Shown in pieces: positions 47,841 through 63,253 of a DNA stretch of 64,000 bases (the stretch's first letter is position 1; each line of letters opens with the position of its first letter). The notes beneath the pieces were generated by a model. It saw only the letters and a program-made list of their open reading frames with translations, was not told where the DNA came from and did not search any database. The position numbers and the translations under genes are program-made. The stretch is from Glomus cerebriforme (Eukaryota; Glomeromycota; Glomeromycetes; Glomerales; Glomeraceae): NCBI GenBank assembly GCA_003550305.1, contig QKYT01000001.1, forward strand, positions 539,094-603,093, written 5' to 3'.

Positions 47841-49549
47841 ATGCCAACAATTCCAATAATACCACGTAAAATCCTTTTTGGAAACCCTTCAAATATCTTA
47901 CCTCAAATTTCACCGGACGGAAAATATTTAGCATTTATTGCTCCTAAAGATAATGTATTGAACATTTATGTTTCCGATAATCCCAAAGATGCATCATCTG
48001 CAAAAGCAATTACTAATGATAAAGTTCAGGGTATTTTAAAATTTTGGTGGAGTTTTGATCATCGAATTGTTTATTCACAAGATAAAAATGGTGACCAAGG
48101 TAAAAAAAAATATATAATTTTTTTTTTCTTCTTTTCTTTAATAATATTAATTTATTCTTTTTTTTTTTTAGATTTTAAATTATATTCGGTTGACGTAATT
48201 ACCGGTGAAGAAATTATATTAACACCATTTGATGGAACAAGATCTGAACCTCTTAAATTTTCTCCAAAATATCCTGATGAAGTTATTATTTCTATAAATA
48301 AACCTGATCCAACAGTTTTTTCATTATATCGTAGTAATTTGAAAACTGGTGAAATTAATTTAATTGAAGAGAATAAACAACCATTTGAAAGTTATCTTGT
48401 GAATGATGATTTGGAAGTTTGTTTTGCTAGTAAATTTACTGATGCTAAAGGGAAAAATGTTTATAGAAAGGTTAATGATGAATGGGAATTGTTGATTACT
48501 TTTAAGTTTGATGATTCAAAATCTTCTCAATTATATCAAATTGTAAAAGCTGATGGGGAGGAATTAATTTATTTGACCGATTCATGTGATAGAGAATATA
48601 ATTCTTTATATAAAATTAATTTAAATGATCCTGAAAAGAAATTTCATATAGTAGTAGAACCAAATAATCAAAAATCTGATATAATTGACATTTTATTTGA
48701 TCCTATTACTCATATTCCTTTAGCTTATTCATTAAATTATTTACGTACTACTTGGAATCCAATTTTTCCTGAAATTTCTTTGGATTTAAATTTTTTGAAA
48801 AGTGTAGATGGTGGTGATTTTTCAATTTTATCTCAAACTTTAGATAATAATATTTGGATTGTTTGTTTTGAAAATGATACTCAATCTGCAAAATATTATT
48901 TATATAATAGAATTGGAAAATGTATACATTTATTATTTAATTCAAAACCTGAATTAGAAGATTATCATTTAGTTAAATTATATCCTATTGTTATTAAATC
49001 TAGAGATGGTTTAGATTTAGTTAGTTATTTAACTTTACCTCCAAAAAAATTTGATCCTTATAGTGATTATAAACCTACTCATCCTTTACCTATGGTACTT
49101 ATCGTTCATGGTGGTCCTTGGGGGAGAGATAGTTTTATTCCTTTAAAAACAAATCATCAGTTCTTGGCCAATCGCGGTTATGCTGTTTTAAGTGTAAACT
49201 TTAGAGGTTCTTATGGTTTAGGTAAAACTTTACTTCGTGATGGTAATCGTGAATGGGGTGCAAAAGCTCAGGATGATTTAATTGGTAAGTTTATCTTTAT
49301 GTCTGAATATTAAGTATGGTGAAACACATATAAATATTTATTTTATTTTACTTTTTTTTTTTTAAAAAAAAAGATGCTGTAAATTGGGCAATCGAAGAAA
49401 AGATTGCAGTGAAAGATAAAATTGCTATTTGTGGTGGTAGTTATGGAGGTTATTCTGTTTTAGCAGGATTGACCTTTACACCTGATGTATTCGCTGTCGG
49501 TATTGAATTTTCTGGTCCTTCGAATCTTGGTAAATATATATATTTTTTT
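47841..49549 (+). CDS. S9 family serine peptidase, 3' part lost in assembly gap
   Basis: Three exons (47841-48099, 48172-49284, 49374-49529) give about 509 residues, after which a donor site leads into the gap, so the C-terminus is missing. The N-terminal half is a beta-propeller-like region ([26 protein letters not shown]). The C-terminal half is the alpha/beta-hydrolase domain: [54 protein letters not shown] and the nucleophile motif GGSYGG with Ser at about residue 480. This order is typical of acylaminoacyl-peptidase / dipeptidyl-peptidase-like S9 enzymes, which cut short peptides in the cytosol. The catalytic Asp and His should lie in the gap. The family's usual length of about 650 residues fits the 765 unknown bases. 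Confidence 0.88.
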
Positions 49550-50314
49550 NNNNNNNNNNNNNNNNNNNNNNNNNNNNNNNNNNNNNNNNNNNNNNNNNNN
49601 NNNNNNNNNNNNNNNNNNNNNNNNNNNNNNNNNNNNNNNNNNNNNNNNNNNNNNNNNNNNNNNNNNNNNNNNNNNNNNNNNNNNNNNNNNNNNNNNNNNN
49701 NNNNNNNNNNNNNNNNNNNNNNNNNNNNNNNNNNNNNNNNNNNNNNNNNNNNNNNNNNNNNNNNNNNNNNNNNNNNNNNNNNNNNNNNNNNNNNNNNNNN
49801 NNNNNNNNNNNNNNNNNNNNNNNNNNNNNNNNNNNNNNNNNNNNNNNNNNNNNNNNNNNNNNNNNNNNNNNNNNNNNNNNNNNNNNNNNNNNNNNNNNNN
49901 NNNNNNNNNNNNNNNNNNNNNNNNNNNNNNNNNNNNNNNNNNNNNNNNNNNNNNNNNNNNNNNNNNNNNNNNNNNNNNNNNNNNNNNNNNNNNNNNNNNN
50001 NNNNNNNNNNNNNNNNNNNNNNNNNNNNNNNNNNNNNNNNNNNNNNNNNNNNNNNNNNNNNNNNNNNNNNNNNNNNNNNNNNNNNNNNNNNNNNNNNNNN
50101 NNNNNNNNNNNNNNNNNNNNNNNNNNNNNNNNNNNNNNNNNNNNNNNNNNNNNNNNNNNNNNNNNNNNNNNNNNNNNNNNNNNNNNNNNNNNNNNNNNNN
50201 NNNNNNNNNNNNNNNNNNNNNNNNNNNNNNNNNNNNNNNNNNNNNNNNNNNNNNNNNNNNNNNNNNNNNNNNNNNNNNNNNNNNNNNNNNNNNNNNNNNN
50301 NNNNNNNNNNNNNN
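49550..50314. other. Assembly gap (765 N)
   Basis: A run of 765 undetermined bases. Sequence after it (50315 onward) shows no S9 peptidase coding, so the rest of that gene, including its stop, should fall inside. The true gap length may differ. Confidence 0.98.
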
Positions 50315-56075: not shown

Positions 56076-56248
56076 ATATATATGTTGTGCCTCAGATCGA
56101 TTCTTGCCTGAGATCGAATCTGACGCACCTCAGATTAAAATCGTCAGGTGAGGTGCCTGGTTTGAAACATCGATTATCTGAGGTGCGTCAGCTATAATCT
56201 GACGCATTTTTATTTTTTTTTTTATTTTTTTAAACTTTAATTTTTTTC
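56076..56248 (+). repeat. Left terminal inverted repeat
   Basis: The left arm begins ATATATATGTTGTGCCTCAG. It contains a perfect inner inverted pair at 56120-56135 and 56176-56191 (CTGACGCACCTCAGAT and its complement), so the single strand could fold on itself. Confidence 0.85.
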
Positions 56249-56461
56249 AAAATAAATATTGGCACATTTATTTACATTAAATATGGTCAGTCAAATTATT
56301 AAATAGAAAATACTCATAATGTATTACATGTAAAATTTATGAAATAAATAAAGGAATTGAATTTTAAAAGTACATAATATTATGTTATAATTTATTTATT
56401 TAACTTAAATATAATTTTCATTCTCTAAATTCTTTACAAGAAGCCCAAATGTTTAACTCGA

Positions 56462-57229
56462 TCTATAAAAAAAAAGAAGAAAAGGAACAGTTACTAGTGT
56501 TCCTTGATGGATGAAGCAATGAAAATTAAAAAACAATAAAAACTCTTACCTAAAGAAACTGAATTGAGCCGCCCACCAGTTCCTGTAAAGAAAAAGAAAT
56601 AGGAATGATTAATGATGTTCATCAATGGATAAAAAACAAAGGAAACTAAAAAAAAAGCTTTAACTTACCTAAAGAATTCAAATTGAGCCGCCCACCAGTT
56701 CCTGTAAAAAAAAAGAAGAAAAGGAATGGTTTAGTGGCGTTCCTCAAGGATAAACACAAAGAAATTTAATAAAAAAGTTTGTTCTTACCTTAAAGAAAGT
56801 GAATTGAGCCACCCTGTAAAAAAAAAAGAAAAAAGGACTGTTCCTTAAAGGATAGAACACAAAGGAAATTAAAAAACAATAAAAACACTTATTAAAGGAA
56901 CTGAATTAAGTCACCTACCAGTTCTTGTAAAGAAAAAAAATAGGAATGATTAATGGCATTCCTCAAAGGATAAAACAAAAAAAAAGCAATAAAAAATACA
57001 AACACTTACCTTAAAGAAGCCGGAATACCTAACCTGTTCCTGTAAAGAAAAAAAGGAATGATTAATGGCATTACTTAAAAAGTAAACTATAGGAAAATAT
57101 AAAGTACATTTACCTTAAACAGGGTGTCCTAAACCATTCCTATAAAAAAAAAGACAGTTAATAATGTTTCGAAAAAACAAGAATTAAAAAAAATTATATA
57201 TCTTTAACTTACCTAAAAGACAGCCCGTT
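56462..57229 (-). other. Tandem array of splice-bordered mini-exons
   Basis: On the minus strand, seven short units repeat every 75-125 bases. Six have splice-like borders on both sides: 57229-57213 (17 bases), 57139-57114 (26), 57039-57010 (30), 56813-56789 (25), 56701-56669 (33) and 56582-56550 (33). Five are preceded by pyrimidine tracts ending ACAG or ATAG (the first only by TAAG) and all six are followed by GTAAG or GTAAA. A seventh copy near 56925-56889 has lost both sites. A last exon could begin at 56462 (after ATAG). The core is GAACTGGTGGGCGGCTCAAT. Joining the 26-, 30- and two 33-base units leaves an open frame with repeated NWWAAQF; another frame of the two 33-base units gives TGGRLN repeats. 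No start exon was found. It may be a relic or part of a repeat-protein gene. Confidence 0.6.
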
Positions 57230-57256
57230 CTTANAAAAAAAAAAAGGTTTTTTAAA

Positions 57257-57424
57257 GAAAAAAATTAAAGATTTAAAAAAATAAAAAAAAAATTGCGTCA
57301 GATTATAGCTGACGCACCTCAGATAATTGATGTTTCAAACCAGGTACCTCACCTGATGATTTTAATCTGAGGTGCATCAGATTTAATCTCAGGCAAGAAT
57401 CGATCTGAGGCACAACATATATAT
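57257..57424 (-). repeat. Right terminal inverted repeat
   Basis: This is the complement of the left arm. All six differences in the outer 131 bases are G/C in the left arm and A/T here, five of them at CpG positions. The inner hairpin pair at 57309-57324 / 57365-57380 has one mismatch. Confidence 0.85.
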
Positions 57425-60830: not shown

Positions 60831-63253
60831 TCATATCATAAGAATTTCATCAATATCCTCCAGTATAGGTTTTAAATCATAAAAGAAGAAATCTTCGGGT
60901 AAATATAACCAATCTCGTACCCTTTCACTATTTTCAATTGGAAAGGAAGAATAGATTTTCTTACGCAACTCCTCCTGTTCCTTAAATTCAGTTTGAATGA
61001 TTGCGAAAAAGTTGAAGATTTTTTTGTAATATGAAATTGAATCAAAAGAAAATGGAATCATATAAGATGCCATTTCAACGGCCAAGTACTTCTTTTTGTC
61101 TGCGAGTGATACGAAAAATAATGTAAGCCGATCACCAACAATTTGAATGCTATAAGTCTTTATTCCTTTAGCGTCCTTGACATTACAATCTAAGTTATTG
61201 CCAAGGATTCGGCAAAGACTACAAAGAGACATCATCAATAACTTCTTTACATCTCCGACTGTGTGTGTAATTGTGGCTTTAAATGGAGGACCTAATACCT
61301 CAGTGTTCATCACTTCCATTCCATCTGACAAACGTAAAACAAGTAAATCTGTCTTTCGCGGTCCAATATCATCTGCAAACATGTTATTAGCTTCTTTTAT
61401 CGAAGTGATGTTCTTCTCAATCCACTCGTACTTAATGTCTGGAAATGCGTTTCGAAATGCTCGGAATATAGGAGATAAACATTCGACAATAAATGTTCGC
61501 TCAGATATATCACGATCTAAGACTCTTGGTAATCTGTATTTAAAGTTTGCAGTAAAGTCTAAAAGTGCGTACCATATAAAGAAGTTGAACCTAGCCTCCT
61601 CTGTCTGGTTATCCCCTTTAACAATTGTATCATTAAAGATCTTTGATTCGATTTGTGCATATTCTGTTTTAAATATCGATTCAAGCTTCTTAACCAAAGA
61701 TTCCTGCAAAACAAATCGATCTTTCATTAGAAACAACTTTTCGATTTCTTCATAAGCTCCCTCTTCGACAGTTTCCTTGACATAATTTATTGTTATGCGA
61801 AACGCACAAACAAGATATGGTGAATATTTATCACACATCTGTTTTGTTACAATTGGTTTGTTTGGTGTATTGATCAAAACTTGTTGTGCCGGTTGAACTA
61901 CTGGACATGGTGTAGACTCACGTGAAGTGAAAAAATCTTCTGAAATATCAAATGATGTCAGGATTTGGGGTGTACTTTGCGCGATAGTATTATCTTCTGA
62001 ATTATTTAATGATGTTATGGTTGGTTGAGCTTGGAATGTACTTGGACTGATTTCAACCAAAGTAGTATCTTCCAAGGTATTTGATATCATGGTTAGTTGA
62101 ACCGAACTTGGAGTATTTTCATCTTCTAAAGTTTCTTTTTCATCTTTGTCCATACCATCACGCTTCGCTTTTCCACATGATCGGTTTGAACTTAGTTTTT
62201 TATTCTTAATAGACTCCGAATCAGAAATCAGAACATTTACGATCGTTGCAAAACAGTAAAAAAATATATATCAAAATTACTTGTTTTTCTGTGTAATCTG
62301 GATCCAATGAATGATCTTCTTCTTCTGAACTCTCAGTATAACTTATTAATTTCCTTTTTCTAACCGGATTCTTTCAGCAAGAAAAGTTATAAATCAGTTT
62401 CAATATAATTATTATTCAATCCTTAACTAGACCCACTTTTTTTGTCAGCTTCACATCACGATCAATAATGGTGAGATCTTCAGCGATGTTCTTATGGAAT
62501 GCCACTACTGTGGTGGTATGTTCTTGCAAATATTTTGACTGTACAGAAAATAAGGGTTAATAAATTCCAAAAACATAAATCATTAATAAAAAAGGTACCT
62601 TAATCTTAGCTAGTTGTACGGCTTCCTAGCTTTTTATCTGTGCCAGTCGAATAGCTTCCTCGTTTTTGATTTTCTTCAAATTTGGCATTGATTTAAAATA
62701 ATAACTTTGACTTCTGGATAACTTCCAAGCCTAATATAAAAAGAAACAAATTTGTAATAAACATTCTTTTTATTTTTCTTTATTTCATAAATGAGGAAAG
62801 CCTAATAGTTCAACACTCCAGCCGACTAATAGTCCTGAAGTGTGTTACAGAAGTTTAAAAGCTCAAATGATATAAGAAGTTGTAGCGGACTAATAGTTCA
62901 ATACTCCAGCCGACTAATAGTCCTGAAGTGTGCTACAGAAGTTTAAAAGCTCAAATGATATAAGTTGTAGCGAACTAATAGTTCAACACTCCAGCCGACT
63001 AATAGTCCTGAAGTGTGCTACAGCAACTTAAATCATTCATTCTTTACAAACTAATACTCACTTCAAAATCCTCGTACATTTGGTTTACTTTCATTTTTGT
63101 TCCTTCCAAAAAAGATTGATTAAGCGTTTTCTCCATAGATTTTTTCATATAATCTAAAATTCTTTTCTTTTTTGAAATGTTAATGGTGCACCACTCAGCA
63201 AAGTGGTTAAGAGACCAACTTTCAGAAGAGGTGGTATCAAAATATCCGTCCAT
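60831..63253 (-). CDS. Lineage-specific multi-copy-family protein, interrupted by one stop
   Basis: The 3' exon, open from an internal ATG at 62153, encodes 440 residues. Upstream exons fit in frame: 63253-63062, 62730-62599, 62538-62428, 62370-62281 and 62213-60831, about 635 codons in total. A TAG interrupts exon 2 after LAQIKS, where the matching half of a duplication (EEAIRLAQIK / EAVQLAKIK) has GAG. So either the copy is damaged or only the shorter product is made. The first exon reads SWSLNHFAEWCTINISKKKR. The C-terminal region has ERTFIVECLSPIFRAFRNAF, DIGPRKTDLLVLR and MNTEVLGPP; the D...E arrangement recalls PD-(D/E)XK nuclease-like domains, but the catalytic lysine is not evident. 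That assignment is weak. Two donors are possible for exon 3 (62428 or 62437). Function unknown. Confidence 0.6.
62802..63023. repeat. Minisatellite, 85-88 base unit, about 2.6 copies
   Basis: Units start at 62802, 62890 and 62975 with CTAATAGTTCAA.ACTCCAG and are nearly identical; the third is partial. The array lies inside the first intron (62731-63061) of the minus-strand gene. Confidence 0.9.

Follow-up and report, generated by a model that had tools for sequence, protein, structure and literature searches.

Within the 64,000-nucleotide stretch of Glomus cerebriforme DNA analysed here (the window), a small DNA transposon carries a row of mini-exons on its minus strand. The feature is probably a transposon-borne transcription unit of tandem introns and mini-exons, processed by the spliceosome and mostly non-coding. 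Judged from their sequence, such arrays would probably be spliced by the cell like a gene, most likely without a protein product, and they appear to form a class of mobile elements, ready for splicing, that has been overlooked and is present in more than one kind of transposon. If spliced as their signals predict, they would be, to our knowledge, the densest known chains of tiny exons in a fungus, and would allow direct tests of introns as a shield of transposons against silencing, of the fungal spliceosome on serial exons of 20-45 nt, and of the multiplication of exon-intron units.

The window array and its host element

The original prediction had placed seven minus-strand units, six of them with splice-like sites on both sides, between transposon-like arms. 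At 56462-57229 the units were borne out with the lengths it gave, and so were the arms, as 177-nt inverted repeats on either side (Table 1). Intact units follow the order of a pyrimidine tract with AG, an exon of 17-33 nt and a GTAAG-like donor. One unit, e4, had been described as having lost both splice sites; its donor is indeed lost, the acceptor is altered and not plainly lost, and in copy C447 both sites are present. That description had passed over the terminal exon as well as a donor-like site in the arm, at 57352. Inspection by eye of the element and of the public gene models P0008-P0011 revealed no signal peptide.

Table 1. Coordinates of the window element and its parts, with array-bearing places elsewhere in the genome
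Feature	Position	Strand	Remarks
Whole element, classed as a non-autonomous Ginger2-like DNA transposon	56083-57417	array on minus	TGTTG...CAACA ends, TATA on both flanks
Inverted repeat, 5' side of array	57248-57424	minus	177 nt, 88% complementary to 56076-56252
Putative first intron	57230-57352	minus	123 nt; donor CAG/GTGAGG at 57352 within inverted repeat
Mini-exon e1	57213-57229	minus	17 nt; weak acceptor TNTAAG containing N
Mini-exon e2	57114-57139	minus	26 nt; one frame EWFRTPCLR, near ERFRTPCLR of gene model P0010
Mini-exon e3	57010-57039	minus	30 nt; splice-like sites both sides
Unit e4	56893-56924	minus	32 nt; donor lost (TTTA/ATAAG), acceptor altered (ACAAG), AG one base later
Mini-exon e5	56789-56813	minus	25 nt; splice-like sites both sides
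Mini-exon e6	56669-56701	minus	33 nt; splice-like sites both sides
Mini-exon e7	56550-56582	minus	33 nt; splice-like sites both sides
Terminal exon, start to first in-frame stop	56434-56462	minus	short open frame DRVKHLGFL-stop
Tail, terminal exon to 3' inverted repeat	56253-56433	minus	AATAAA-like runs
Inverted repeat, 3' side of array	56076-56252	plus	177 nt, 88% complementary to 57248-57424
hAT element	C138:175300-182000		~1-kb inverted repeat, 81% identical; array at each end, both inward
Array family	C63, C130		exon type GTTACCGGACTTCTTGG
Array family	C167		exon type ATTCAGCTCTGG
Array family	C169		exon type GAAACGGCCTTGTAG
Array family	C143		exon type TTCCCTTCCAGC; chain of 22 introns
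Array family	C327		exon type GTTTCAGGAAACTG

Ginger2 elements are described as having TGTNR ends, 4-bp duplications in RTATAY-like targets and inverted repeats of about 50-180 bp, with a transposase that combines an H2C2 zinc finger and a DDE core (Bao et al. 2010, PMC2836005). The window element is classed as a non-autonomous Ginger2-like DNA transposon because of its TGTTG ends, 4-bp flanks and 177-nt repeats; a weak match to an H2C2 integrase, in a relative, fits this as well. TGTTG...CAACA ends, which conform to TGTNR, were found in the window, in C447 and in others, some copies being decayed (TATTA in C267). Matching 4-bp flanks stand at all five loci with both ends found, as TATA in an RTATAY setting at the window, C447, C608 and C525 (a small repeat pair without an array) and as TTAA at C267. 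The arms, which as matched take in a few flanking AT bases, fall within the described range of repeat length. Six relatives carry the inverted repeat at 70-79%; one relative's piece gave a weak Integrase_H2C2 match (E 5.4e-5, 23.7 bits, below the Pfam cut-off of 25.5), and Pfam found no DDE core in the six pieces searched.

In its ends, 4-bp duplications and repeat length the element is like Ginger2, and the relative's weak H2C2 match may be a further likeness. It differs from Ginger2 as described in that source (PMC2836005) by its interior, a tandem mini-exon array, and by its array copies, since no transposase was recognised in the window copy or in the other array-bearing copies. The three scanned Ginger2-like loci with transposase pieces (L040, L042, L043) have no array, so a role of the array as transposase leader is unsupported in this group. 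Rfam gave only two matches in the element, with E values of 0.59 and 0.78, far under gathering, and a search of a plasmid collection gave no match. The neighbouring F-box protein shares 82% identity with an R. irregularis F-box protein, and one Glomus cerebriforme protein agrees with this genome at 478 of 478 positions, so that the host is Glomus (Rhizophagus) cerebriforme or very close to it.

A search of the genome yielded nine further good array copies (C447, C608, C267, C489, two in C911, C249, C445 and C344) plus fragments. Each of the nine has at least one inverted-repeat match beside its array on the same contig, and all ten listed matches of the tail, at nine places including the window, lie at array-bearing copies. 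A donor-like or decayed counterpart of the 57352 site was found in related repeats of C118, C407 (two) and C367; none was found in that of C334. The two copies of C911 (C911:21500-26750; L006, L007) stand less than 3 kb apart in opposite orientation, one of them with its inverted repeat and first units tandemly duplicated. In C267 (L004:1078-1359) the far inverted repeat continues into a copy, in inverted orientation, of the array's first unit, an extension that recalls the long repeats of the hAT element described below.

Arrays elsewhere in the genome

A pattern for two successive mini-exons, TTTTNYAG-N18-46-GTAAG-N55-85-TTTTNYAG, was searched in the genome with the reversed pattern as control, and matched 685 times (339 and 346 by strand) against 64 (38 and 26). 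Among the first 100 pattern places listed, 69 fall into 24 runs with gaps below 1 kb; the remaining listed places include single matches, possibly ordinary genes. Similar arrays recur throughout the genome, and the window array is accordingly not a single relic gene. The exon families of these arrays, told apart by eye, look unrelated.

Eight other arrays were tested for flanking long inverted repeats, the flank of C143 being too short. The repeat flanking C153 scored 55, where the highest of 30 shuffles reached 46, yet it consists of A/T runs; that of C169 scored 45 against 40. Nothing above shuffles was found at C63, C167, C184, C24, C327 or C138, the last having escaped the test because its array lies inside the inverted repeat. 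In C138, transposase pieces between the two arrays, interrupted by stops, match DUF659 above the cut-off (E 2.3e-15), on which match they are assigned to the hAT type; the Dimer_Tnp_hAT match (E 0.079) lies under its cut-off. With its DUF659 region and this weak dimerisation match between inverted repeats, the element is like hAT; its repeats of about 1 kb, composed mostly of inward-pointing mini-exon array, are unlike hAT. Parts of C350 are similar to C138, and among the 139 DUF659 places listed these two adjoin arrays, others standing farther off at C249 (~3.5 kb) and C110 (~4.2 kb).

Several smaller observations concern these arrays. The array at C327:64090-66870 (L044, L037, L045) comprises about 25 mini-exon units by eye, with 8 introns in the scored chain and exons unlike those of the window family; the remains downstream of it, by eye, resemble what we take to be a Plavaka-type transposase end. 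A 55-nt terminal module is common to C138- and C327-type arrays (L048:1728-1880, L055-L065), and in most of the 24 listed places it includes a motif, GTTGG-TTCGATT-CCAAC, that resembles a tRNA T-arm in antisense; in 12 sources of the module Rfam found nothing at gathering score. At L035 and L049 a further small element with many AAATCAAATTTG/CGAATCGAATC-type repeats interrupts the arrays, and at L069:3685-4083, about 1 kb past the C84 array and on the opposite strand, lies what appears by eye to be a Tc1/mariner-like transposase piece.

Splice signals and the branch-point hairpin

The chain score is that of the best-scoring series of introns and 12-60-nt exons, compared with 8 dinucleotide shuffles. 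The window scores 30.8 on the minus strand, 3.1 on the opposite strand and at most 7.1 in the shuffles. Its best chain takes in the repeat donor, e1-e3 and, farther upstream, two introns that are doubtful; e5-e7 are left outside because e4, with its lost donor, breaks the chain. Of 20 array sequences, 19 score higher than every one of their 8 shuffles, the exception being the truncated copy C325, although outside the window family these scores are not independent, since most of the arrays there were chosen by means of that very splice pattern. On the opposite strand no score is above 13.2 apart from that of the hAT element, whose arrays occupy both strands. The median intron measures 86 nt in the window family and 79 nt in the other families, close to the 74.5 nt of 20 putative ordinary coding introns of the window.

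Conservation was measured on 42 units from eleven window-family sequences, units with N and those scoring below 55 (including most e3-type units) being left out. Conservation along the donor GTAAG is 0.90/1.00/1.00/1.00/0.88, at the acceptor 1.00 for A and only 0.79 for G, and at the branch-point T/A/A 1.00/0.98/0.97. The intron means by base are 0.59 for G, 0.80 for A, 0.84 for T and 0.63 for C. In the window family the donor, the branch point and the A of the acceptor belong to the best-conserved columns for their base, a comparison between columns and not an independent count, because the units share a common ancestry. Some other exon and intron letters are conserved equally to the splice sites, and the exons are better conserved than the introns. 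Splice sites varying at random beside a conserved spacer, the pattern named in the original prediction as speaking against splicing, were looked for and the opposite was found, the splice sites outlasting most intron sequence. The suggestion in the original prediction of a mobile element that bears a chain of splice-ready mini-exons is supported. A spliced retrocopy with an e7-type join was sought in the genome with up to 3 mismatches; the one match was an acceptor site and not a true join.

In several families the branch point lies in the loop of a small intron hairpin, for example GAAACG-TTATTAAC-CGTTTC. For 154 array introns the stem score is 11.0 and that of their shuffles 8.2; the same comparison gives 9.5 against 8.6 for the 20 putative ordinary coding introns. 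In stems with CG, TG or CA, 87 of 115 arms are compatible against a shuffled mean of 79.3 (P 0.0036, relatedness ignored), a modest covariation effect; the abundance of CG/TG/CA variants among the arrays is consistent with methylation in the past. The hairpin is not a universal trait: it stands out clearly in C63, C153, C167, C169, C184, C24 and C138, is weak throughout the window family, and is lacking from C143 and C327.

This palindrome bears on another reading, that the units are transposase-binding sites near the element ends and their splice-like look is secondary. Such subterminal repeats have precedents in other hAT and CACTA elements, and the arrays do adjoin inverted repeats, at both ends in the hAT element, with a palindrome in many units (GAAACG..CGTTTC). 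The reading is rather unlikely, as it leaves unexplained the ordered donor, branch point, pyrimidine tract and acceptor on one strand, the unlike exons and the better conservation of the splice signals, and the arms of the palindrome show poor conservation in the window family.

Coding capacity, gene models and proposed course of events

The original prediction had seen in the array the logic of a micro-exon gene, one that encodes repeat proteins diversified by exon choice. Among the 42 window-family units, the synonymous, non-synonymous and stop changes observed in the three frames are 9/25/1, 6/21/5 and 11/21/1, and those expected are 10.0/23.3/1.6, 5.4/22.8/3.8 and 9.7/22.5/0.9, so that no frame has an excess of silent changes. 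Exon length is divisible by three in 25 of 52 cases in the window family, which would favour such a gene, and in 18 of 100 in the other families, which speaks against it, one third being expected. After removal of three weak chains (C325, C445, C63) from 26 array sequences, none of the remaining 23 arrays has a joined frame longer than the longest of 30 shuffles, and 9 lie above the shuffle mean. The join of the C138 right-end mini-exons is open for 81 of 82 codons, and the longest of 30 shuffles is likewise fully open. The aligned arms of C138 are 83.6% identical, exons at 0.838 and the rest at 0.835 (exons outside the chain counted as rest), with gaps of 9-10 nt between aligned exons; coding constraint is thus unseen in these arms, exons being no better conserved and the gaps falling in exons. 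Protein coding by the arrays is not supported. A protein-coding repeat gene was rejected on codon changes, exon lengths, joined frames and the hAT-arm comparison.

Four public gene models read through such arrays, a point in favour of micro-exon genes, as is the short open frame in which the terminal exon of the window closes. The joined and translated C138 right-end mini-exons match two Glomus cerebriforme hypothetical proteins (E 2e-24 and 1e-19; 70% over 99% of the query). The start MPNGRT of P0008/P0009 corresponds to ATGCC/GTAAAT in the hAT repeat once the first mini-exon is attached to it across an intron of 59 nt (46 nt at the C138 left end). Concatenated window-exon peptides match C1645_805252 (E 1.4e-12) and C1645_821097 (E 5.4e-6), and e7 joined to the terminal exon reads TGGRLNSVSLDRVKHLGFL-stop, the C-terminus of P0011 and exactly the end of C1645_821097. 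The Glomus cerebriforme models P0008-P0011 join array mini-exons; if the genome belongs to that species, they are models of the genome's own array copies. They hold their frame open only through odd alternative splice sites, and may be computed predictions rather than cDNA. As such frame-keeping sites are unlikely, the models are taken as agreement on splice-site positions and not as RNA evidence. At least four arrays stand in public databases as hypothetical proteins, which may distort gene counts of mycorrhizal fungi.

Schistosome micro-exon genes also have tandem tiny exons; the present arrays are unlike them in their transposon setting, their often non-triplet lengths and their want of codon selection. 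Taken with these results, the micro-exon reading appears distinctly unlikely. The SP7-like effectors are likewise repeat-bearing genes of arbuscular mycorrhizal fungi, and in the SP7 genes of Rhizophagus a shared, conserved intron precedes the first repeat and the encoded repeats are hydrophilic (PMC11333574). Identity with them was set aside on the differing structure given in that source, the comparison being one of descriptions.

The array might also act as an introner or exon trap would, so that a copy sitting in a host gene could be removed by splicing or could contribute exons. Introners bring one intron per insertion, inside genes, whereas many introns are chained here inside a transposon, and this reading is very unlikely. 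In its favour, the splice sites lie within the element, and the N-terminal peptide of P0010, unmatched in the fetched loci, could be host sequence. Many introner families are described with the inverted repeats or target duplications of DNA transposons (Gozashti et al. 2022, PMC9860276), and the splice signals of the arrays are similarly carried by DNA-transposon-like units.

For the preferred reading, a spliced and mostly non-coding transcription unit, the following course is proposed. Transcription would begin in or beside the inverted repeat, which carries the first donor, and the RNA would run inward through the exon-intron units to end in the terminal exon near the far end. About 70% of the array would be taken out by the fungal spliceosome, and the spliced RNA that remained would be short and mostly non-coding. 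Arrays may lengthen as their exon-intron units duplicate and may be dispersed by transposition, the window family as a non-autonomous Ginger2-like element and another family inside long hAT inverted repeats. Once made and spliced, intron-rich transcripts may escape silencing by passing as those of intron-rich host genes, and the element would stay expressed and mobilisable. In R. irregularis most transposon families are described as having high CG methylation, and small RNAs are also described (PMC8647823), which makes silencing pressure plausible in a relative. A bolder version, possible but doubtful, would see in the arrays mobile spliced RNA genes common to unrelated superfamilies (Ginger2-like and hAT at least), in which the inverted repeat supplies promoter, first exon and donor, the units multiply themselves and many carry branch-point hairpins; the transcripts would pass as those of intron-rich host genes, and splicing of the long inverted repeats would remove most of the self-complementary sequence that feeds silencing.

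No publication describing such arrays was found by title or abstract, in a search that covered subscription journals thinly, and term searches of the R. irregularis papers on transposons or gene models PMC8647823, PMC11075540 and PMC10234402 gave no passage on them. Elsewhere in the window, a gene that appears peptidase-like by eye contains a stretch of N at ~49541-50310, and a tandem repeat of 88 nt occupies 62802-63023 in 2.6 copies with 94% matches.
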